A stretch of 64,000 nt of DNA from Ferrimonas kyonanensis DSM 18153 (lineage in GTDB: Bacteria; Pseudomonadota; Gammaproteobacteria; Enterobacterales; Shewanellaceae), in assembly GCF_000425405.1 (NCBI RefSeq), contig NZ_AUDJ01000001.1:310001-374000 (forward strand), read 5' to 3'. Within the stretch, counting starts at the first letter, position 1, and every line of letters begins with the position of its first letter. The notes beneath the pieces were generated by a model, which worked only from the letters and a program-made list of their open reading frames with translations, made no database searches and had not been told where the DNA came from. This document shows positions 10,663 to 61,678 of this stretch, piece by piece. The position numbers and the translations under genes are program-made.

Positions 10663-12636
10663 ATGATGATGAATACAAATAAAATGCCTGCTGCCATAGC
10701 GTTACTGTCGCTACTGGCCCTTAGCGGTTGTGGATCCGATTCGGACTCAAGCTCTGATCCACAACGCCCGATTGCTGATACTGATAAAGTCCATGAAAGC
10801 CTAGAGGTGGCCGTTACCCCGAAATCGGAATTAGAGGGAACCATCAATGTCTACCTTGGCCACTGGTACCCGTGCTCCGACCTGCATCCAGAGATGTGTA
10901 CCCAAGATGCCGATCTGAATGACTTGCCGGCCATCGGGGTTCATGGTGATGAGAACGATCCTAACTGGCTGACTTACGGCCGAGGGAATCCAAACGGAAC
11001 CTACAACAAGGAACATAACCGCCTGACGGCCAGGCCTGCGGCGGGGGCTGACGACTACAGCATGAAGATCAGCGCCGCCGAGCTTAAGCGTTTTGCGGCC
11101 GAATCCGTGCGCAGCGATCTCTTCATTCCCCGCCAGTACTCCGCGCTGGATGTGGTGTTGTATGTCTCCTCCATTCGAGATGATTTCGAAGTCACCCTGG
11201 GTGAATTCAACGAGGAGATGAATACCTATGAATTTACCACGTCGTTTGATGCCAATAATGACGGCGATTACGACGATGAAGGTGATTATAAGGACAGCAA
11301 AAACTGGTACGCGAGTATGTTGTACAGCGGCGGCGATGCCAAAAAAAGCAATGGTCAGCCTACCTTAGAGCCTTTTTATGATCGTATGGATGAGCTTTGG
11401 GTCAAAGAGGGCATGCACATTCGCTTTCAGCCCGAGTCCAGCATCATGACTGCCCGGCGTCAGCAAACTTTAAAGGCCGAAGTGGCGCGTTTTCATGCCG
11501 CCGGAGATAAGGTGGTTCTGCCTGAATTGCGCGTGGACTTTGGCGATGGACGCGGTCCACAGGTTGTGGCTCAGAACGTGGAGGTGAAGCCGCACAATTT
11601 GCGCCCGGACGTATTCCAAAAAGGGGTTATTACTGTCTTGGATGTCGCGCTAACCGCTCACGACGAGTATGGGGTTAAATTTGGCGTCACTTTCTGGCCG
11701 ACCATTGCCACCAACGCCGATGTGGGCTCCTACGCGGTGACCGCCATCGATGAGCAACGAGCCCACGGCTTTTACGGGTGGACCTTGTATCGCGGTGAAG
11801 ACTTCACCAGCAATGATTTCTTCTATCACCCGAATAAGGAGTGGCCAGTTGCCAAAGACGTACAAACGGATACGGAGTTCGGACGTGTGTGTGAGTTTCT
11901 GCGTGATGATGATGGCAACTTAAACCAGGCCGCCGCGCAGGAGTGCATCGATAATTGGTTCAATCTGTTTGGCGGTAAGAATACGCACCGAATGGCCGAT
12001 ACGGTGCCTATGGTCATGCCGCAGCAATACGTAATGTTCGAATGGTTTGCCAACATGGAAAACGCCTGGGAAATGGCCCATCGAAACTATGGCCCGGACG
12101 GCCAGTTCCCCATTTATGACATCGAGCGAGCGGTCGCTCCTTTGGATGAAAACCACTTTGGCTGGAAGGTCGCCGACTGTGCTCAGTGCCACAGCCTGGA
12201 TAACATCCACCTAAACGGTGACTCTCCGACCCTGCCGGAACAAAGCGAACCTTACTACTGCGCGTCGTGTCACGGCAGTAACGGCGCTCCTGTTGGCCAT
12301 GGTGAAGAAGCGCGCTGTTTCTGGTGTCACTCTGAAGATAAGTTGATGCCAAATCACGGCGAGGCTTCTCAGAAAATGTACTTCGATGACACAGAGTGCT
12401 CGGGCGTTACCAAGCAGAAGAAGATTGATATCGGAGGCTACTACGGTCCCTGTGCCGATGCGGTTAAGACTGCCTCGCCCGATTTCCATCGAGAGGTTAA
12501 GGATTTCGCCGATAACTCAACGTTCTATCGCTTACTGCCTGCGGAGAAGCGTATTACCTATGGGAATAATGACTGGCGCACCAGCGAAAGCTTCCCAGAC
12601 CCATACTCCTGTATGACATGTCACCCGAATCAGTGA
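10663..12636 (+). CDS. Tetrahaem c-type cytochrome lipoprotein, uncharacterised
   Basis: A 657-residue predicted lipoprotein: signal MMMNTNKMPAAIALLSLLAL with lipobox LSGC, lipid cysteine near residue 23, then a Ser/Asp-rich tether. Four haem-binding CXXCH motifs lie only in the C-terminal quarter, with first cysteines at about 506 (CAQCH), 533 (CASCH), 552 (CFWCH) and 650 (CMTCH). The large N-terminal part (about 40-480) has no haem motif and includes an acidic run DANNDGDYDDEGD near 204, like a calcium-binding loop. I do not recognise the N-terminal family. It is not a decahaem MtrC/OmcA. Likely an envelope electron-transfer protein or enzyme needing Ccm maturation. Three tandem ATGs make the start uncertain by two codons. 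A strong terminator follows. Confidence 0.78.
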   Translation: MMMNTNKMPAAIALLSLLALSGCGSDSDSSSDPQRPIADTDKVHESLEVAVTPKSELEGTINVYLGHWYPCSDLHPEMCTQDADLNDLPAIGVHGDENDPNWLTYGRGNPNGTYNKEHNRLTARPAAGADDYSMKISAAELKRFAAESVRSDLFIPRQYSALDVVLYVSSIRDDFEVTLGEFNEEMNTYEFTTSFDANNDGDYDDEGDYKDSKNWYASMLYSGGDAKKSNGQPTLEPFYDRMDELWVKEGMHIRFQPESSIMTARRQQTLKAEVARFHAAGDKVVLPELRVDFGDGRGPQVVAQNVEVKPHNLRPDVFQKGVITVLDVALTAHDEYGVKFGVTFWPTIATNADVGSYAVTAIDEQRAHGFYGWTLYRGEDFTSNDFFYHPNKEWPVAKDVQTDTEFGRVCEFLRDDDGNLNQAAAQECIDNWFNLFGGKNTHRMADTVPMVMPQQYVMFEWFANMENAWEMAHRNYGPDGQFPIYDIERAVAPLDENHFGWKVADCAQCHSLDNIHLNGDSPTLPEQSEPYYCASCHGSNGAPVGHGEEARCFWCHSEDKLMPNHGEASQKMYFDDTECSGVTKQKKIDIGGYYGPCADAVKTASPDFHREVKDFADNSTFYRLLPAEKRITYGNNDWRTSESFPDPYSCMTCHPNQ

Positions 12637-12716: not shown

Positions 12717-13613
12717 TTACAGGTTGGGCAGGGCGTTTAGGAAGGCTGTTAACTCATCGGTAAACACCTTCACTCGGTGGGGGCGATGCTGACGAGACGG
12801 GTAGATGGCGTACATGACGTTCTGGTTGTAGATATCATCGGAAAACAGACGCACATACTGGTTCTTTGGCAGGTTTCGAAATGCGCCATTGGGCAGGCAG
12901 GCGACACCCAGATTTTCTGATACCATTTTTGCCAGCACGTCGGGCAGATCGGAAGTGATGCGAGTTGAAGTGATAAATTCACCACTCAATCCTTGGCCGT
13001 TGTCCCACTGTTGCTTGCCTTGGCGGTAACTGGTGTCTATCTGCAGTTGCAAATAGGGGTAATTCGATAATTCGCTTGGGTGTTTCGGCACACCATATTG
13101 TTCCAATAAGCCCTTGCCGGCAAAGAAGTGTCGTTTACCCTGGAAAATGAGCTTGGCAACCAGGGAGGTGTCATTGGGTAAATTAGGGCTAATGGCGATG
13201 TCGTAGTTATGCAGAGTTTCAATGCGGCGACCGTGACTCCCTTTCACGCTAAGTTCAACATTCGGATAACGCTTCATAAAGGGTGCCAAAAATTCACCGG
13301 CTAAAATGTTGCCAAACGTGGGTGGCACCATCAGGCCAATGGGGCCACGAACTTCTTGCTTGTCGTTGACCAGGTTACGAATGTTGTCTTCTTCACTCAA
13401 CAGTATTTCTACCCGCTTCAGAATGGCGGTGCCCTGACTGGTGGTGTGAAACTCTCTGCCACCGCGGTGAAACAGTTGGGTGTTCAGCTCATCTTCCAGG
13501 CTTTTAATCTTACGGCTTATGGATGAGGCGGTGATGTCGAGAATCTCAGAAGCACGAGCAATACTCTGCGTCTTGGCCACCACCATAAAGACTCTAAGTG
13601 CACCTAAATTCAT
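12717..13613 (-). CDS. LysR-family transcriptional regulator
   Basis: A 298-residue LysR-type regulator. The winged helix-turn-helix at residues 1-60 reads MNLGALRVFMVVAKTQSIAR, with SSISRKIKSLEDELNTQLFH completing it. The effector domain (about 90-295) has the usual two-lobe periplasmic-binding-protein fold (GPIGLMVPPTFGNILAGEFL). The ATG at 13613 has GAGGT upstream. It is convergent with the cytochrome gene and its upstream side faces an empty 0.6-kb region, so its target is not evident from context. Composition is moderately AT-rich, like the preceding island. Confidence 0.9.
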   Translation of the reverse strand: MNLGALRVFMVVAKTQSIARASEILDITASSISRKIKSLEDELNTQLFHRGGREFHTTSQGTAILKRVEILLSEEDNIRNLVNDKQEVRGPIGLMVPPTFGNILAGEFLAPFMKRYPNVELSVKGSHGRRIETLHNYDIAISPNLPNDTSLVAKLIFQGKRHFFAGKGLLEQYGVPKHPSELSNYPYLQLQIDTSYRQGKQQWDNGQGLSGEFITSTRITSDLPDVLAKMVSENLGVACLPNGAFRNLPKNQYVRLFSDDIYNQNVMYAIYPSRQHRPHRVKVFTDELTAFLNALPNL

Positions 13614-15311: not shown

Positions 15312-15496
15312 TATTATATCTTGATTTGAGGAGGCTTGAGTCGAGCCCGGTTCAGCTGGTAGCAGCCTGGTGGCCTATGGACGCTAGCGGCTGCTGACTA
15401 TTAGTCGCTATTCTCTCTCGTTGATACTTCACCTGGAGCGTGCCAATATCTCAGCTTACTGCGTTAGTAGGGTTACTGAATGTGCTTTTAGGGGGG

Positions 15497-16015
15497 ATGA
15501 TGTTGCGGTTTGGGCTGATACTGGTGACAATCGTCGCACAGGGCGAAGTAGGCATGGCTGTGGCTGCTGATGGTAACGGCTTGAATCAATGCCGGGATAA
15601 TCTGCCTGAACTGATAGAGCGCATCAACGAGGTTCGGACCAGTGGACAACTGTGCGGGGGGCGTCGATACCCGGCAGTGGCTCCGCTGCAAGCCCATGGC
15701 TTGTTGCAACAAGCAGCCTGGGAACACGCCTCTAACATGGCTAACTACAATTTTCTCAGCCATACCGGTCTGGATGGCAGCGATGTGGGTCAACGTGTTA
15801 CTGCTTTGGGGTATGAATGGCAGTTTGTCGGTGAGAACATTGCCGCCGGCCAGCCTAATGTGGATACCGCAGTCAAAGAGTGGCTGGCCAGTCCCGGCCA
15901 TTGTCAAAACCTGATGTCATCGGAATACCGGGAAACCGGAGTCGCCTGTGTTGCCAACCCAGATTCGGAATACGGCTACTACTGGACTCAGGTATTTGCA
16001 GTGGGGTTCGAGTGA
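15497..16015 (+). CDS. Secreted CAP-domain (SCP/PR-1-like) protein
   Basis: A 172-residue exported protein with one CAP domain. Signature motifs are LLQQAAWEHASNMANYNFLS, HTGLDGSDVGQRV, GENIAAGQP and WLASPGHCQNLMSSEYRE with TGVAC. Two His and two Glu form the usual CAP cavity. Bacterial CAP proteins are envelope or secreted proteins of unclear function, some binding lipids or acting as proteases. The N-terminus MMLRFGLILVTIVAQG is a signal peptide. ATG 15497 (or 15500) directly follows AGGGGGG; a GTG at 15440 gives 19 more residues with a weaker site. It is a single gene with no obvious partner. Confidence 0.8.
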   Translation: MMLRFGLILVTIVAQGEVGMAVAADGNGLNQCRDNLPELIERINEVRTSGQLCGGRRYPAVAPLQAHGLLQQAAWEHASNMANYNFLSHTGLDGSDVGQRVTALGYEWQFVGENIAAGQPNVDTAVKEWLASPGHCQNLMSSEYRETGVACVANPDSEYGYYWTQVFAVGFE

Positions 16016-16413: not shown

Positions 16414-17661
16414 ATGGCTGGTTTATTTAGAGCACAGGCAATAGAAGCGCAAAAACATCGACTCACGGGAGTCGTGTCTTTGTCTCAGCCAATGTCGATT
16501 CACTATATAGCCTTAAGTCTTGTAGTCTTTACTATTGCGTTGATTGTTTTCCTTCTGACCTCTGAATATGCACGAAAAGAAACGGTTAAGGGGTATCTGA
16601 AGCCAGACAAAGGCATGATTCGTGTGTACTCCGACAGAAGAGGGGCCATTACCGAACTTCATGTTGAGGAGGGGCAAAAGATTGGTAAAGGCGACCCTCT
16701 GATTACCATCACTGACAGCCGTTCCCTTACCTCGGGCGGAGAACTTGAAGATACCCTGATAGAAGAGATCGACAAGCAGATCTCTATCCTTAACAGGGAG
16801 CTTGTTCATCGCAAAGATTTGGAACATAAACAGCAACATAAACTGGCTACAGACATCGATGCTCTAGAGCGCCATATCGATGATCTTGGATTGCAGCTCT
16901 CTCTCATTTCAGAGCGTTTGGAGATCAAAGAAGTTCTTCTAGATAAATCAAAGGAACTGCACCAGAACGGATTTATATCAACATCGGATTTCCACGCCCA
17001 AAAGGAGCAACTGCTGCTGGTGCAACACGCCAAGGAACAGGCTCAGATCGATAAGAACCAGAGTCAGTCCAGGTTGGAACAGCTGCAACAGGAATCTGGA
17101 ATGTTGCCCCACCAACGTTCATTGCAAATCCTTGAGATCGAAAAGAAGTTAACCATTTTTCTTCGACAGCGAACTGAGGTGCAGAACCGGTTTCGCTACG
17201 TCATTCGTGCGACCTCAAACGGAACGGTAACCGCTATTCAAACAGCGATAGGGGAGTACATTTCATCTTCGGTACCGTTAATGAGTGTAATTCCCGAGGG
17301 AGCGGTTTTAGTTGCGGAGTTGCTATTACCGAGTCGCTCAGCAGGATTTGTAAGAAAGGGGGATACAACGCGTCTGCGATTCGACGCCTTTCCTTATCAG
17401 AGATTTGGGTCCATGGCCTCTCATGTTTATCAGGTCGATAAGGTTGTTCTTGAGCAAAATGACAGCCGATTGCCCATTCCAATGAATGAGCCTGTTTATC
17501 GAGTGCAGGCCAAGCTTCCGGTACAAAGTCTGAATGCTTACGGCGAGTCGTTTCAACTGAAAAGCGGCATGCAACTGGAGGCGGACATTATTCTGGAAAG
17601 CCGAAATTTGGTCCAATGGCTGCTGGATCCCATCTATAGCCTGAAAGGGAGGGTTGGGTAA
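16414..17661 (+). CDS. HlyD-type membrane fusion protein of a bacteriocin exporter (CvaA-like)
   Basis: A 415-residue periplasmic adaptor linking an inner membrane ABC exporter to a TolC-like channel. Residues about 29-50 form the single membrane anchor (ALSLVVFTIALIVFLL). A lipoyl/barrel-sandwich half follows (VYSDRRGAITELHVEEGQKI), then a long coiled coil (about 110-240, rich in L, E, Q and K), the second lipoyl half (IRATSNGTVTAIQ) and a C-terminal beta domain. This matches CvaA/MchE-type adaptors used with C39-peptidase ABC exporters. GGACAAGGAAG lies directly before the ATG. It overlaps the exporter gene by one base (TAATG), showing translational coupling. No outer membrane channel gene is nearby, so a housekeeping TolC is probably used. 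Confidence 0.9.
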   Translation: MAGLFRAQAIEAQKHRLTGVVSLSQPMSIHYIALSLVVFTIALIVFLLTSEYARKETVKGYLKPDKGMIRVYSDRRGAITELHVEEGQKIGKGDPLITITDSRSLTSGGELEDTLIEEIDKQISILNRELVHRKDLEHKQQHKLATDIDALERHIDDLGLQLSLISERLEIKEVLLDKSKELHQNGFISTSDFHAQKEQLLLVQHAKEQAQIDKNQSQSRLEQLQQESGMLPHQRSLQILEIEKKLTIFLRQRTEVQNRFRYVIRATSNGTVTAIQTAIGEYISSSVPLMSVIPEGAVLVAELLLPSRSAGFVRKGDTTRLRFDAFPYQRFGSMASHVYQVDKVVLEQNDSRLPIPMNEPVYRVQAKLPVQSLNAYGESFQLKSGMQLEADIILESRNLVQWLLDPIYSLKGRVG

Positions 17662-19808
17662 TGTCTGGCAAGAGCGATAACAACCAAACGGCTTCAATGC
17701 TGGATTTTTCCGGTATTAAGCGAGTGCCAGTGATTCTCCAGGCCGAGGTCGCTGAGTGTGGTTTGGCCTGTTTGGCTATGGTTGCCAGTTTTCATGGCAA
17801 AAGGCTGGATTTAGCTGCAGTAAGAAAGCGGTTTTCAACCGGCCTTAAAGGGATGAACTTGCAACAAATGATCGAAGTGGCAGATTCGTTAGGTCTGGCG
17901 AGTCGAGCACTTAAATGCCCTCTGGAGGAGGCTGGTCACCTATCTTTACCCTGTGTCATCCACTGGGATATGAATCATTTTGTGGTGCTTACCAAAGTCA
18001 CTTCCAAGCACGTGATGGTCAATGATCCGGGAAAGGGACGGTGCCAGTATGGCCTGGATGAATTTGCGACTCACTTCACTGGCGTGGCACTGGAGCTGTC
18101 TCCGACTCAGAGTTTTATCCGTGAGGATGAGCGTCAAAGAATGCGGTTAGGGCAACTGTGGTCTAAATTGACCGGATTCAAATCTGCACTACTGGCACTT
18201 TTGGGTTTCTCTCTGTTGCTGCAGCTATTTTCTCTGGTGTCTCCCTATTACATGCAGTGGGTGGTCGACGAGGTATTGATCAGCCAAGATGTGGCACTAC
18301 TTAAAGTGCTGGCCTTGGGATTTGCCCTGATAGTCTTGATAACTGTCGCAACCACCGTCGCTCGCTCCTGGTTAGTCTTAAGGCTGTCCGCCTTATTCAA
18401 TATGCAATTGGGTGTGAATCTATTGCACCACCTATTGAGACTGCCGATGAGTTTCTTTGAGAAACGGCATATTGGTGATCTGGTTTCTCGATTTGGATCA
18501 TTGGCCAATGTCAGAGAGCGGATAACCAGCGGTCTGGTGGAGACGACAGTCGATGGCTTGATGTCCATTGCGGTATTGATCATGATGTTTATCTACAGCA
18601 TTAAGCTGACCGTGGTTGTCTTGATCGCCGTGGCATTGTATTACCTTCTTCGATTATCTCTGTATCGACCATTGCATAGAACCACCGAGGAGTCGATTCA
18701 AGCGAGTGCCAAAGAGCAAAGTAATTTTCTGGAAAATGTCAGGGGTATTCAGACAATTAAGCTTTTTACTCGGGAAGCTCAACGACAATCCCTTTGGCAA
18801 AACCAGTATGCGGATGTCATCAACGCCGACATTAGGTTGGGAAAATTAAAGATCGGATTTGAGTCATCGAGCAAGTTTCTGTTTGGAATTGAAAATATTG
18901 TCGTTGTTTACATTGCGGCCATGACCGTTATGGATGGAAAGATGACGGTTGGTATGGTGCTGGCTTTTATGGCCTATAAACAACAGTTAACAGAGCGAGC
19001 GACCAGTTTTCTTGAACAGTTGATCGAATTTCGCATATTGCGTCTACATTTGGACCGAATATCGGATATCGCCTTGCATGAACAAGAAAGCTGTCGAGAC
19101 GGTGATCAACTGCTGGAAGCACCTCACGGGCGATTGACTGTTGAGGGAGTGAGCTTCTCCTATGGAGATGCTGTTCCTGTTCTGCAGGAGGTATCTCTGG
19201 TCATTGAACCTGGAGAGTGTATTGCCATCGTTGGCGCATCGGGTGAGGGCAAGTCAACGTTGATGAAGTTGATGCTTGGATTACTGTCTCCTGTGAGTGG
19301 CCGAATTTGCTTGGATGGGGTGGACATCAATACTCTCGGGCTGACTCGTTATCGTCGTCAGATTGCCGCTGTGATGCAGAATGACACCCTTTTTTCCGGA
19401 AGTGTCGCTGACAACATCACCTTCTTCGATCCCGAACCAAATCTGTTGAAGATGCAGAAATGTGCCCAATTGGCGGCAATAGACAGTGAAATTCGGGGCT
19501 TTCCAATGGGCTATGACAGCCTTGTAGGAGATATGGGTAACCAGTTTTCCGGCGGTCAAATGCAGAGGATATTGCTGGCCCGAGCGCTGTATCAGGAGCC
19601 GAGTGTGTTGTTCTTGGATGAGGCCACCAGTCATCTGGACTTGGACAATGAAACTCAGATTAGTCAACAGATTAGCAAGCTGCCGATTACCAGAATAATT
19701 GTTGCCCATCGTCCTGAAACGATTCGTCATGCCGATCGTGTCTTTGCTCTGGAGTCAGGCAGGGTGCGGGACATCAATGTTGAGGAGGCGATCAGCACTA
19801 ATTCGTAG
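17661..19808 (+). CDS. Bacteriocin ABC exporter with N-terminal C39 peptidase (CvaB-like)
   Basis: A 715-residue peptidase-containing ABC transporter that cuts double-glycine leaders and exports the mature peptide. The C39 domain (about 20-145) has Gln27, catalytic Cys33 in AECGLACLAM, His106 in HWDMNHFVVL and Asp122 in VNDPGKG, so the protease looks active. The membrane domain spans about 165-440. The ATPase has Walker A GASGEGKST, signature FSGGQMQR, Walker B VLFLDEAT and the H-loop IVAHRPET. Its length matches CvaB/MchF exporters. The two double-glycine peptide genes lie immediately downstream and are the obvious substrates. It is translationally coupled to the adaptor gene. Confidence 0.95.
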   Translation: MSGKSDNNQTASMLDFSGIKRVPVILQAEVAECGLACLAMVASFHGKRLDLAAVRKRFSTGLKGMNLQQMIEVADSLGLASRALKCPLEEAGHLSLPCVIHWDMNHFVVLTKVTSKHVMVNDPGKGRCQYGLDEFATHFTGVALELSPTQSFIREDERQRMRLGQLWSKLTGFKSALLALLGFSLLLQLFSLVSPYYMQWVVDEVLISQDVALLKVLALGFALIVLITVATTVARSWLVLRLSALFNMQLGVNLLHHLLRLPMSFFEKRHIGDLVSRFGSLANVRERITSGLVETTVDGLMSIAVLIMMFIYSIKLTVVVLIAVALYYLLRLSLYRPLHRTTEESIQASAKEQSNFLENVRGIQTIKLFTREAQRQSLWQNQYADVINADIRLGKLKIGFESSSKFLFGIENIVVVYIAAMTVMDGKMTVGMVLAFMAYKQQLTERATSFLEQLIEFRILRLHLDRISDIALHEQESCRDGDQLLEAPHGRLTVEGVSFSYGDAVPVLQEVSLVIEPGECIAIVGASGEGKSTLMKLMLGLLSPVSGRICLDGVDINTLGLTRYRRQIAAVMQNDTLFSGSVADNITFFDPEPNLLKMQKCAQLAAIDSEIRGFPMGYDSLVGDMGNQFSGGQMQRILLARALYQEPSVLFLDEATSHLDLDNETQISQQISKLPITRIIVAHRPETIRHADRVFALESGRVRDINVEEAISTNS

Positions 19809-19819
19809 AAAGGAATTTG

Positions 19820-19888
19820 ATGCCGGAATACACAAGGCATTGGATCAAGGGCGGAATGTGTAGCCCTTGTCATCATGCAAGTTGCTGA
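19820..19888 (+). CDS. Possible 22-residue Cys/His-rich peptide
   Basis: A very short frame, MPEYTRHWIKGG followed by MCSPCHHASC, begins 11 bases after the exporter stop and has AGAAAGGA at good spacing. It contains a GG followed by a 10-residue Cys/His-rich tail, recalling a processed peptide, but the leader lacks the conserved L-x3-E-L-x2-V positions of the other two. It may be a real small peptide, a decayed remnant or chance. Confidence is low because only the ribosome site supports it. Confidence 0.25.
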   Translation: MPEYTRHWIKGGMCSPCHHASC

Positions 19889-19951
19889 TTTTGAGGCTAT
19901 GCTTTAAATCCGCACTTGCATAAACAGGGAACGTTAAATAAGGATGTTGTT

Positions 19952-20122
19952 ATGCAGGAATTGACAAATAGTGAATTGAATAATGTTGTTGGAGGTCACC
20001 CAATAATTGTTGTTGTTGGGTTTGTTGTACGTTCAACCATTTTCAGAAATGCAGTGAAAGGATCAATTACAGCCTTTTCGGCATATGCGGGCTATCGAGC
20101 TGTTGGAACACTTGAATTCTAA
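19952..20122 (+). CDS. Double-glycine bacteriocin precursor, peptide 1
   Basis: A 56-residue precursor. The leader MQELTNSELNNVVGG is exactly 15 residues and fits the double-glycine consensus at every key position: Leu -12, Glu -8, Leu -7, Val -4, Gly -2, Gly -1. Cleavage would leave a 41-residue, cysteine-free, cationic (about +3), hydrophobic peptide starting HPIIVVVGFVV and ending VGTLEF. It contains GxxxG-like motifs (GSITA, SAYAG) as in two-peptide class IIb bacteriocins. The ATG at 19952 has AGGA seven bases upstream; a longer frame from 19916 would bury the leader. It sits behind the C39 exporter and 9 bases before the second precursor. Sequence family not recognised. Confidence 0.85.
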   Translation: MQELTNSELNNVVGGHPIIVVVGFVVRSTIFRNAVKGSITAFSAYAGYRAVGTLEF

Positions 20123-20131
20123 GGATAGAAT

Positions 20132-20296
20132 ATGACTTTATTAAATGGAAATGAAATGTTGGAAGTTCAGGGGGGGAACCCTGTTGCTATTGCTCTTCTG
20201 GTTGTAGCTGCTCGTTACTATGGAAGAAAGGCAATTGGTATGTCTGTCGGTGCATTCGTTTCAGGCGGCATTGGCCGTTGGTTGAATACTAACTAG
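20132..20296 (+). CDS. Double-glycine bacteriocin precursor, peptide 2
   Basis: A 54-residue precursor starting 9 bases after peptide 1, with AAGGA ahead of the ATG. Its leader MTLLNGNEMLEVQGG is also 15 residues and matches the consensus: Leu -12, Glu -8, Met -7, Val -4, Gly -2, Gly -1. The predicted mature peptide has 39 residues, starts NPVAIALLVVAARYYG, ends GRWLNTN, has no cysteine and is about +4. A glycine-zipper run includes AxxxG (ARYYG), GxxxG (GMSVG), AxxxG (AFVSG) and GGIG, the helix-helix contact pattern of class IIb bacteriocin partners. The tandem arrangement, equal leaders and complementary helices suggest the two peptides act together on a target membrane. Confidence 0.85.
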   Translation: MTLLNGNEMLEVQGGNPVAIALLVVAARYYGRKAIGMSVGAFVSGGIGRWLNTN

Positions 20297-20301
20297 GAAG
20301 C

Positions 20302-20335
20302 AGTCAAATGTGGCTTTTTGCCACATTTGACTTTT
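20302..20335 (+). terminator. Strong stem-loop terminator/attenuator inside the bacteriocin operon
   Basis: A 12-bp perfect stem (AGTCAAATGTGG at 20302-20313 with CCACATTTGACT at 20321-20332) has a 7-base loop, followed by TTT. It stands 5 bases after the second peptide stop and directly before the ribosome site of the next gene. It should end most transcripts after the peptide genes and let a fraction read into the candidate immunity genes. Confidence 0.85.
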
Positions 20336-20347
20336 AAGGAACTGGAT

Positions 20348-20635
20348 ATGTTTTCTAGAGATTGCCCACATTGTAAATCCTCGATAGATTTTTCCTACAT
20401 CAAGAAGTTCGTGGATGACGAGCGTATTCCTTGCCCTCATTGCCACCGGGTTCTTAGGGTTAGCCCTGTCGCGTCTCTGATCAACAGTGTTTTTATCGGT
20501 TTGGTAGTTGGTGGAGCGCTGGGGCTGTTCACTGACATCCGAGTGGACTTTATAGTTGTCATTGGCGGACTGGTGACGGTATTTTTCCAGAAATACTTGG
20601 ATGTGTTTTTTTCATTGGTAGAAGATAAAAGCTGA
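20348..20635 (+). CDS. Zinc-ribbon small membrane protein A, candidate immunity protein
   Basis: A 95-residue protein with no recognised family. The N-terminal 35 residues hold CPHC at 6-9 and CPHC at 29-32, a C-x2-C-x19-C-x2-C zinc-ribbon pattern. Two hydrophobic segments follow (about 44-62 and 65-84, e.g. SVFIGLVVGGALGLF). The ATG at 20348 has AAGGA at 7-base spacing; a TTG frame further up lies inside the terminator loop. Its place directly after the peptide genes, small size and membrane segments fit an immunity protein, but no known immunity family is recognised. It shares the exact cysteine spacing with the next gene. Confidence 0.7.
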   Translation: MFSRDCPHCKSSIDFSYIKKFVDDERIPCPHCHRVLRVSPVASLINSVFIGLVVGGALGLFTDIRVDFIVVIGGLVTVFFQKYLDVFFSLVEDKS

Positions 20636-20645
20636 GGGGAAAAGG

Positions 20646-20954
20646 ATGAAACTTGGCCACTTGGAACGGTACTGCGGTAATTGTGGGCATCAATTTAGCA
20701 GGGAATTGCTGATGTCGTTGATTACAAAAAATAAGATTGACTGTGAACGATGCCGGTTTATTAATACCCCTGCAATCCTATCAGGAAACCTTGTTATATT
20801 ATTTGCGTTTTTTCCTTTTGTGTTTGGGCTATATTATTTTCTTGGATCTTGGAATAGCTATGTCTTGGATGCCATATCCTTTGGGGTTGGTTTTGCTCTA
20901 ATCAGGCTAAGTGCCCCCTTTTCCTCTCTGAAATCGTTCCCGCCGGAAGACTAG
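20646..20954 (+). CDS. Zinc-ribbon small membrane protein B, candidate immunity protein
   Basis: A 102-residue protein starting 10 bases after protein A, with GAGGGG upstream. It has CGNC at 10-13 and CERC at 33-36, the identical C-x2-C-x19-C-x2-C spacing, then two membrane segments (ILSGNLVILFAFFPFVFGL and a second near 73-90). It is therefore probably a diverged paralogue of protein A. Two related immunity-like genes next to two precursor peptides suggest either one per peptide or a joint complex. This is inference from context; function is unproven. Composition is AT-rich like the rest of the locus. Confidence 0.7.
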   Translation: MKLGHLERYCGNCGHQFSRELLMSLITKNKIDCERCRFINTPAILSGNLVILFAFFPFVFGLYYFLGSWNSYVLDAISFGVGFALIRLSAPFSSLKSFPPED

Positions 20955-20959
20955 GGAAG

Positions 20960-21184
20960 ATGACCTTTCCTAAAGGAAATGCCCCATCTTACGAAGCCTT
21001 ATTCTATTTCGCCCTATGGCTATTGATGTTTGCGGTTTTAGTGACATTACTGAGCGCCCTGGCGCTGTCTGAGTCGCCGAAGCTCGATGCTTCCTTGCTG
21101 GCGGGCGCATGGTTGTGTTCGGCGGCCAATGCGCTGTGGTTGCTGCTTAACCTGGAGTGGCTGTTGGGAAAGCCAAAGTCATAA
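20960..21184 (+). CDS. Small two-helix membrane protein at the end of the bacteriocin operon
   Basis: A 74-residue hydrophobic protein starting 5 bases after protein B, with AGGGAAG just ahead of the ATG. Two membrane segments are seen (about 13-34, ALFYFALWLLMFAVLVTLL, and 46-66, AGAWLCSAANALWLLLNLEW). It lacks the zinc-ribbon cysteines. Its codon use is GC-richer than the preceding genes, so it may be a native gene that the locus landed next to, or an additional immunity or accessory factor. Not recognised. Confidence 0.6.
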   Translation: MTFPKGNAPSYEALFYFALWLLMFAVLVTLLSALALSESPKLDASLLAGAWLCSAANALWLLLNLEWLLGKPKS

Positions 21185-60295: not shown

Positions 60296-61678
60296 ATGCG
60301 TTACTGGATTGGGATACTCGCGTGCGTCTGCACCGCGGCCACGGCACAACCGCTGAGCTTATTGCAAGCCTGGCAGCGGGTGGAAACCGTCAGCGACAAG
60401 CTGCAGGCGGAACATCAGGCGGAAAATCGCGCCGCCGCCGAGCTCGGCGCCGCCGAGCAACTGGGGATGCCGTCGCTGTCCCTGAGTGGCAGCTATACCC
60501 GGCTGGATAAGCCGATTGAACTGGACTCCCGTGCCATCAATCCCATTGGTGATCTGTTGCAGCTTCCCCAGGTGGGCGCCATCGCGGGTCAGTTGGGGAT
60601 GGATCTGTCCGGCTTGAACTGGAAGACCGAAATCACCGACCGCGACATCTACCACGCCAGCCTGAAAGCGGTTTGGCCACTGTACGTGGGCGGACGCATC
60701 GAAGCCGCCCAGGCGATCAAGGCCGCCGAGCTGGATCAGCAGAAGCAGCAGGGGGAGCTGAGCCGTCAGGAGCGGTTCACCACCTTGGTGGAACGCTACT
60801 TTGCGGTGGTGCTCAGCACTCAGGTGGAACAGCTGCAGCGCCAGCGTCTGCAGACGTTGACTGAGCACCTGCAGCACGCCGAAGCGATGCAGAAGCAGGG
60901 CCAGATTGCCGAAGTGGAACGTCTGAATGCCCAGGTGGCGATGGAGCAGGGCCAGGTGGCGCTGTCTCAGGCCCAGCGGCGCAGTAAACTGGCGCACATG
61001 GCGCTCAACACTTTGCTGCAGCAGAATCAAGTGGATACCGCCCAGGGGCTGGGATTGCCACTGACTCAGCCGGATCTGGACCGCTGGCAGCAACAGATGC
61101 TGGAGGTGCACCCGGCGCTGGCGTTGTATCAGGCCAAGGAGGCCCAGGCCCAGGGGGCCATCGATGCCGAAAAGGGTCGTTACAAGCCGGAAGTGGCGCT
61201 GTTCGGCAACTACACCTTTGAGACTCAGGACAGCCTGGCGGCGGAGCTGGAGCCGGACTGGCTGGTTGGGGTAACGGTGAAGGTGCCACTGTTTACCAAC
61301 GACGGCCGTTCCGATCGGGTGCGAGCGGCGAAAAGCGCCCAGCTGCAGGTGCAGCATCTGCGTGCCCAGACACAACAGGATCTGCAGCTGTTGATGGCAT
61401 CCCGCGGCCAGGAGCTAAGCCAGGCACAGCATGAATACCGCGCCCTGGCGACCGCCGAGACGCTGGCCAAGGAGAACCTGCGCTTGCGGCAACTGGCGTT
61501 TAGCCAAGGGCTGAGCACCTCCATCGATCAGGTGGACGCCAGCGACAAATTGCTGGAGGTACAGACCGCCCGCGCTGCCGCCCAATACCGTTATCTGGTC
61601 GCTCTGGGGCAATTGGCCGCCATGAGCAGCAACCAGCAACGTCTTTTCCAACTGCTTGAACGCACGGAATCAGAATGA
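60296..61678 (+). CDS. TolC-family outer membrane efflux protein
   Basis: A 460-residue outer membrane channel. The signal peptide MRYWIGILACVCTAATAQ lacks a lipobox cysteine at the cleavage site, so it is TolC-like rather than OprM-like. Two repeats of the TolC coiled-coil/beta fold are visible (VWPLYVGGRIEAAQAIKAAE and VKVPLFTNDGRSDRVRAAKS). ATG 60296 has AGGA at 7 bases; an ATG at 60272 lies inside the palindrome. It is the first gene of an operon with an HlyD adaptor and two ABC-2 permeases, overlapping the next gene by 4 bases. Confidence 0.9.
   Translation: MRYWIGILACVCTAATAQPLSLLQAWQRVETVSDKLQAEHQAENRAAAELGAAEQLGMPSLSLSGSYTRLDKPIELDSRAINPIGDLLQLPQVGAIAGQLGMDLSGLNWKTEITDRDIYHASLKAVWPLYVGGRIEAAQAIKAAELDQQKQQGELSRQERFTTLVERYFAVVLSTQVEQLQRQRLQTLTEHLQHAEAMQKQGQIAEVERLNAQVAMEQGQVALSQAQRRSKLAHMALNTLLQQNQVDTAQGLGLPLTQPDLDRWQQQMLEVHPALALYQAKEAQAQGAIDAEKGRYKPEVALFGNYTFETQDSLAAELEPDWLVGVTVKVPLFTNDGRSDRVRAAKSAQLQVQHLRAQTQQDLQLLMASRGQELSQAQHEYRALATAETLAKENLRLRQLAFSQGLSTSIDQVDASDKLLEVQTARAAAQYRYLVALGQLAAMSSNQQRLFQLLERTESE

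Follow-up and report, generated by a model that had tools for sequence, protein, structure and literature searches.

A putative double-glycine bacteriocin cassette with two adjacent precursor genes, a dedicated exporter and candidate membrane immunity proteins in Ferrimonas kyonanensis DSM 18153

A stretch of 64,000 nt from Ferrimonas kyonanensis DSM 18153 (contig NZ_AUDJ01000001.1, positions 310,001–374,000; hereafter the window, in whose coordinates all positions are given) carries a compact cassette on the forward strand that appears to encode a double-glycine (GG) bacteriocin together with its dedicated exporter, an assignment that is well supported by the predicted genes. The best explanation of the cassette as a whole, to which we give a probability of roughly 0.6, is that it specifies a type I-secreted, unmodified bacteriocin, in which two precursor peptides, p1 and p2, act jointly and the product of the gene behind them, zn1, provides immunity. 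Judged by comparison with related loci, two-peptide action of p1 and p2 is likely. The cassette seems to be ordinary in kind, but its peptides look new. In the open-access literature, as judged by titles and the beginnings of abstracts, no paper on these peptides or on a zinc-ribbon immunity family was recognised. The cassette is a low-GC island: its G–C content is 0.462, compared with 0.572 for the window, and just two of 119 equal-sized windows score lower.

Bioinformatics analysis identified an HlyD-family periplasmic adaptor of 415 residues at 16,414–17,661 (Pfam HlyD_3, 54.6 bits; HlyD_D23, 46.8 bits; below the cut-off of TIGR01843) and, at 17,661–19,808, an exporter of 715 residues with a C39 peptidase domain (Pfam, 116.9 bits) followed by the membrane and ATPase domains of ATP-binding cassette (ABC) transporters (ABC_membrane and ABC_tran). 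The two open reading frames (ORFs) overlap by one base, 17,661, and two precursor genes follow, just as the preliminary description of this locus had it. The exporter is the sole C39 match in the 4.93-Mb genome at E 0.001. Over residues 20–704 it can be aligned with PDB 8vp3 ('ABC-type bacteriocin transporter'), a peptidase-containing exporter of known structure, and Cys33, His106 and Asp122, which we take to be the catalytic residues, are all present in the alignment. The C39 exporter is apparently intact; an inactive C39 domain, named in the preliminary description as refuting, is not indicated. A C39 exporter with its active-site residues next to an HlyD adaptor is the arrangement of class II (double-glycine) bacteriocin and microcin loci. 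Relatives of the exporter are numerous in Alteromonadales, and it is present in 8 of 14 genomes of the genus, the source genome included (E 1e-100). The outer-membrane channel is encoded outside the cassette, and the genome has several OEP-family proteins. One of these, a TolC-like outer-membrane efflux protein, is encoded within the window itself, near 60,563–61,621. The locus had been called complete; this stands for adaptor, exporter and precursors, but not for the channel, and the immunity candidates (20,348–20,954), although inside the described span, had gone unnamed.

The precursor genes p1 (19,952–20,122, 56 residues) and p2 (20,132–20,296, 54 residues) are separated by 9 bp, and each is preceded by AAGGA. 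Their leaders, MQELTNSELNNVVGG and MTLLNGNEMLEVQGG, are exactly 15 residues long, with Leu at −12, Glu at −8, Leu or Met at −7, Val at −4 and GG at the end. The mature parts of 41 and 39 residues contain no Cys and have net charges (K+R−D−E) of +3 and +4; the leader length and pattern, the mature lengths, the lack of Cys and the cationic character had been reported before and were reproduced here. A scan of ORFs of 25–130 residues on both strands with this strict leader motif returned only p1 and p2 in the window. When 87 related loci were dinucleotide-shuffled, the chance rate came to about 0.7 hits per 64 kb. Profile searches, as had been proposed, gave a divided result. The p1 leader scores above the cut-off of NCBIfam TIGR01847 (bacteriocin_sig; 17.2 vs. 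15.7 bits), and p2 is over no Pfam or NCBIfam cut-off. Matches of p1 to the curated families of class IIb (two-peptide) bacteriocins, TIGR03949 (E 0.59) and NF038035 (lactococcin G-alpha; E 0.06), remained under the cut-offs, and p2 matched neither; five of ten related precursors scanned also matched TIGR03949 weakly, every one under its cut-off.

Weak matches of p1 to the ComC (E 0.06) and BlpC (E 0.017) profiles, both of GG-leader pheromones, raise the idea that the peptides are exported quorum-sensing signals rather than toxins. We regard this as very improbable: the matches span the leader only, no histidine kinase or regulator was found in the eight neighboring proteins scanned, and the small membrane proteins that are co-inherited with peptide types (see below) fit immunity. 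A lantibiotic or other modified peptide was rejected, since the same eight proteins include no modification enzyme and the peptides lack Cys; beyond these neighbors, the ORFs of the 11–26 kb region were inspected by eye for such enzymes. A phage or anti-phage origin was likewise dismissed, as PHROG and PADLOC gave nothing useful and both PADLOC matches fall in the ATPase region of the exporter.

Two adjacent precursor genes with GG leaders are what is expected of class IIb bacteriocins. GxxxG or GxxxG-like helix-pairing motifs are typical of this class, and the preliminary description had named richness in them as its hallmark in p1 and p2. This part of the description has to be given up: p1 contains no GxxxG and p2 one, which is not above shuffles, and the small-xxx-small motifs (4 and 6, against shuffle means of 2.9 and 4.3) do not exceed chance either. 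The GG bacteriocin with its dedicated exporter stood, and the two-peptide part of the reading has support from relatives, in which peptide pairs are co-inherited. This was seen in a comparison set of 87 loci (1.11 Mb), comprising 80 exporter loci, six non-duplicate loci of congeners and the window; L093, L094 and L097 were excluded as duplicates of L014, L008 and L043, and one peptide is counted twice because L028 and L044 overlap on one contig. The set contains 125 leader ORFs, whereas three dinucleotide shuffles yielded 12, 14 and 12, and at least one is present in 67 of the 87 loci. There are 18 adjacent pairs with gaps of −1 to 27 nt, two of which (L018 and L099) are polar or proline-rich and possibly of another kind. 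When the 18 pairs were pooled, GxxxG motifs proved enriched in second peptides (31, compared with 11.9 in shuffles) and only slightly so in first peptides (8, compared with 5.1).

All 153 pair-by-pair combinations were scored, with likeness accepted at z of at least 5. Both members were alike in two combinations (L004/L096 and L029/L033), and one like-placed member only in three (L003/L069, L008/L092 and L024/window); two more matches involve L034, one with its own second pair and one crosswise with L092. Four pair types are shared between species, each with a homologous small membrane protein as the next one behind the pair. For L004 (Shewanella chilikensis) and L096 (a genome of the genus Ferrimonas), z is 20 for peptide A, 16 for peptide B and 9 for the membrane protein; the corresponding values are 23, 12 and 37 for L029/L033 (Pseudoalteromonas and Thalassotalea), 12, 11 and 25 for L034/L142, a combination identified subsequently, and 21, just 3.3 (weak) and 18 for L003/L069. 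Across pair types (L004/L096, L029/L033 and L003/L069), the membrane proteins are not homologous (z −0.8 to 2.3). In L004 (4315–4461) and L096 (6108–6254), a third leader peptide lies behind the conserved pair (z 18; 25 of 33 mature residues identical), and a three-peptide bacteriocin is possible in that case.

A hairpin with a 13-pair stem and a TTTT tail is located at 20,302–20,332, between p2 and zn1 and just 5' of the zn1 start, for which 20,348 is more probable than 20,318. Hairpins with stems of at least 9 pairs within 60 nt 3' of a gene were counted against shuffles in the compared loci; the count was confined to ORFs that start with ATG and have an exact GG, which removed L092 and left 17 pairs. 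A hairpin follows the last gene in 12 of these 17 pairs (1.4 expected) and the first gene in none. It also follows 37 of 77 leader peptides outside pairs (5.1 expected), one of which, in L092, is really the second member of a pair, and 66 of 443 ORFs of at least 200 codons in the same loci (17.6 expected). The hairpin thus appears to mark p1–p2 as one unit, with the peptides expressed more strongly than the genes behind them. It is the 18 adjacent pairs, the four pair types kept with a membrane protein and the hairpin after the second gene that lend comparative support to the two-peptide reading of p1 and p2.

The genes behind the hairpin, zn1 (20,348–20,635, 95 residues) and zn2 (20,646–20,954, 102 residues), encode membrane proteins with two CxxC pairs and hydrophobic helices each. 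In the AlphaFold model of zn1 (mean predicted local distance difference test score, 85.9; predicted template modeling score, 0.60), helices 40–61 and 66–87 stand behind a small Cys-bearing N-terminal domain that may be described as zinc-ribbon-like; a PDB search with zn1 gave no match better than E 0.24. Alignments were built from first six and later ten members of this family. In the ten-member alignment the invariant residues are limited to the four Cys and a single Leu, no Pfam model is common to the ten, and NCBIfam TIGR04104, a putative zinc-finger family, matches weakly and below its cut-off. The closest relative of zn1 is a protein of L009 located behind another pair (z 26), followed by those of L008 (12.5), L041 (12.3) and L092 (8.9). 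The order differs for zn2 (L008, 15.8; L092, 9.9; L041, 4.8; L009, 3.5), the first two of these relatives lying behind pairs of a peptide type designated FVALYW, and zn1 and zn2 are barely similar to each other (z 2.2).

The zn profile found 24 places in 21 of the 394 genomes of the order, four of them seeds. Each of the three strongest non-seed places (G084, G076 and G236; E 1e-12 to 5e-8) has a leader peptide 30–58 nt upstream. In the exporter loci, seeds make up six of the seven strong zn matches; the non-seed member, in L033, is located 161 nt 3' of an FVALYW-type leader peptide, and among weak members (E 1e-4 to 3e-3) those in L023 and L072 have upstream leader peptides and that in L042 has none. 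A search of the 394 genomes with the FVALYW-type peptide profile produced four full-length matches, each directly 5' of a CxxC membrane protein, and five partial ones; three of the four had served as seeds, which leaves G236 as the independent match. Since seeds are present among the zn and FVALYW-type matches, only the non-seed matches count as tests. In L113 (G084), L114 (G076) and L155 (G236), a single FVALYW-type leader peptide directly precedes a CxxC membrane protein; no exporter gene was seen for L113 and L155 within stretches of 3 kb, and L114 has an upstream exporter-like ORF. Some of these single loci may be stand-alone peptide–immunity modules that use an exporter encoded elsewhere. 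In the family search, the zn profile matched 6 of 152 genomes. One match, in G480 (L137), is a truncated orphan zn1-like gene, perhaps an immunity gene in decay; no leader peptide was recognised within its 3-kb stretch.

Based on its position, family association and the AlphaFold model, zn1 is a likely candidate for the cognate immunity protein of p1 and p2. Its companion zn2 has its nearest relatives among the partners of FVALYW-type pairs and therefore may protect from the bacteriocin of a neighbor; with less assurance than for zn1, it may be an orphan immunity protein directed at a peptide of another type, the FVALYW type, that congeners produce. A wider proposal, put forward tentatively and with some doubt, is that zinc-ribbon-like CxxC–CxxC two-helix membrane proteins constitute a new immunity family for Gram-negative double-glycine bacteriocins that can be recognised from sequence, with zn1 serving its own pair and zn2 acting as orphan immunity against the FVALYW-type bacteriocin carried by G012 at the same chromosomal site.

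FVALYW-type peptides occur singly in L033, L113, L114 and G236, in each case with a CxxC membrane protein, and paired in L008 and L092. Together with the presence of two zn proteins behind two peptides and with the 77 leader peptides outside pairs, this could mean that p1 and p2 are one-peptide bacteriocins like class IIa microcins, independent of each other but served by the same exporter, and that zn1 and zn2 perhaps each confer a separate immunity. Such an arrangement seems unlikely, because zn2 is nearest to the partners of another peptide type and because elsewhere both members of a pair are inherited jointly, followed by a homologous membrane protein.

Several results nevertheless weigh against joint action of p1 and p2 with zn1 as immunity protein. 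The single FVALYW-type peptides indicate that a pair is not always needed, and p1 and p2 have no excess of GxxxG. No clear homologous pair was found elsewhere, so that the two-peptide nature of p1 and p2 themselves stays presumptive: p1 has no relative among the compared pair peptides, and p2 has a weak one in G016 (39% identity, E 0.002; z 6.4 between the mature peptides), with z of 6.4 and 4.2 against the first peptides of L142 and L034 and 5.1 against the second peptide of L024. The pair of L009, the locus of the nearest zn1 relative, was not supported as homologous (z only 1.6 and 2.5, not significant), so that on the peptide side zn1 is tied to p1 and p2 by position. The strict motif detected no leader peptide in 20 of the 87 exporter loci, but it is strict enough that loci without a match are not proven empty; the G236 peptide, with Thr at −8, was missed by it. 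Nor did the motif place a leader peptide beside the other 17 weak zn places in the order, except for a 109-residue ORF in L123 that is not precursor-like, and none was recognised at the non-seed places of the family search (G480, G432 and G470). A consensus terminator scan, which needs five T, omitted the p2 hairpin. Promoter-like sites are at shuffle level (8 in the region vs. 7.4), with none in 19,809–19,951. Separately, p1 was tried as a diverged FVALYW-type peptide, which found no support (E 0.13 with the mature profile).

If the cassette does encode a jointly acting pair with zn1 as immunity protein, p1 and p2 would be co-expressed from their adjacent genes. From the domains and residues present, the C39 domain of the exporter is expected to recognise the shared leader pattern and to cut after GG. 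Both mature peptides would leave the cell through the exporter, the HlyD adaptor and a TolC-like channel encoded elsewhere. The probable target of the two hydrophobic, cationic peptides, acting jointly, would be the inner membrane of related marine bacteria. The hairpin behind p2 probably ends most peptide transcripts, some read-through yielding zn1 and zn2. With its zinc-ribbon-like domain and helical hairpin in the inner membrane, zn1 would be the cognate immunity protein, as its gene association suggests, and zn2 might protect against the FVALYW-type peptide of congeners.

Within the genus, the exporter is flanked by a CAP-family gene on one side and by uvrA with its small neighbor on the other in four of the 14 genomes, namely the source genome, G005, G008 and G012. 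The peptides at this site differ: G012 has the FVALYW-type pair, G005 one 73-residue precursor and G008 one 67-residue precursor (L092, L093 and L095). In G009, the UvrA of which is 98.8% identical, CAP and uvrA are kept with about 350 bp between the flank matches, and the gap contains a 35-nt, 83% match to zn1, which tblastn showed as a 15-residue match. Given this near-empty site with a probable remnant of zn1, G009 seems to have lost the cassette. The CAP-domain gene, at 15,440–16,015 of the window, is beside the exporter in G000, G005, G008 and G012 and retained in G009. Downstream of zn2, a membrane-protein-like ORF of 74 residues (20,960–21,184, forward strand), without a Pfam or NCBIfam family, possibly belongs to the cassette. 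Farther upstream, two ORFs were named by eye: one resembling a multihaem c-type cytochrome lipoprotein, with several CXXCH motifs towards the C-terminus (10,663–12,636), and, near it on the minus strand, a LysR-like ORF (12,717–13,613).

Within the cassette, the CxxC membrane proteins hold the greatest interest. A 2022 review states that no conserved sequence feature allows the immunity proteins of class II microcins to be located (PMC10233263); if the proposed role is true, a conserved CxxC–CxxC/helical-hairpin signature next to leader peptides would help to detect new Gram-negative bacteriocins. In Alteromonadales, the loci look like exchangeable modules, each with two or three peptides, in many cases a hairpin, and a matching membrane protein, at one exporter family, and within one genus the same site carries different modules or a near-empty scar.

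Among known systems, Gram-positive class IIb bacteriocins resemble the cassette in their two adjacent cationic peptides with GG leaders, and the p1 leader matches bacteriocin_sig; the present case differs in its Gram-negative host, the HlyD adaptor, the absence of GxxxG enrichment and the lack of a member-level match. Class IIa microcins of the MccV type share the GG leader, C39 exporter, adaptor, TolC channel and adjacent membrane immunity protein, but consist of one peptide of 5–10 kDa instead of two of about 4 kDa and, according to the same review, are confirmed from Enterobacteriaceae only (PMC10233263). Moraxella catarrhalis McbABCI likewise combines two secretion genes, a short GG bacteriocin and a small immunity gene, but its single peptide derives from a 101-residue precursor and its immunity ORF overlaps the peptide gene (PMC2761928).

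Proteobacteria are already known to include two-peptide bacteriocins with type I secretion: Cdz (CdzABCDI) of Caulobacter is a proven two-protein, contact-dependent bacteriocin (PMC5380434). It combines a type I exporter and its adaptor with a pair of small, hydrophobic peptides that have GG-type leaders and with a small membrane immunity protein, and Cdz-like systems are predicted particularly in gammaproteobacteria (PMC5380434). The same parts being present here, a surface-held, contact-dependent two-peptide toxin instead of a freely diffusing one was considered, but appears quite improbable. The Cdz precursors (86 and 84 residues) have glycine zippers, and their relatives, sought among ORFs of 60–200 residues and reported at 60–151, 14% with two adjacent toxins, are longer than p1 and p2, which at 56 and 54 residues fall below that range and show no GxxxG excess (PMC5380434 for the Cdz values). 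Contact-dependence is demonstrated for Cdz; the comparison with that system is by described features, and CdzI has three predicted transmembrane helices. What is new here is that the cassette extends into a hairpin and the zn1 and zn2 membrane proteins, relatives of which are found directly behind leader peptides in several genomes.

The statement that such systems are best known in Gram-positive bacteria therefore needs amending in view of Cdz (PMC5380434, as above) and of an annotated pair beside a homologous exporter in Shewanella oneidensis MR-1. The megaplasmid of that strain (NC_004349) is the best of 885 plasmid records matching the exporter at E 1e-100, with 68.8% identity. The MR-1 peptides differ in being longer and containing Gly and Cys, the first leader ends in GS, and the small hydrophobic ORF of 71 residues behind them, absent from the gene table consulted, lacks a CxxC pair, unlike zn1 and zn2. 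As in the window, the MR-1 cassette (SO_RS22345-22360) has HlyD directly 5' of the exporter and two adjacent leader peptides, annotated 'bacteriocin-like peptide', followed by a hairpin (seen by eye) and the small ORF, and it offers the same architecture in a genetically tractable strain.

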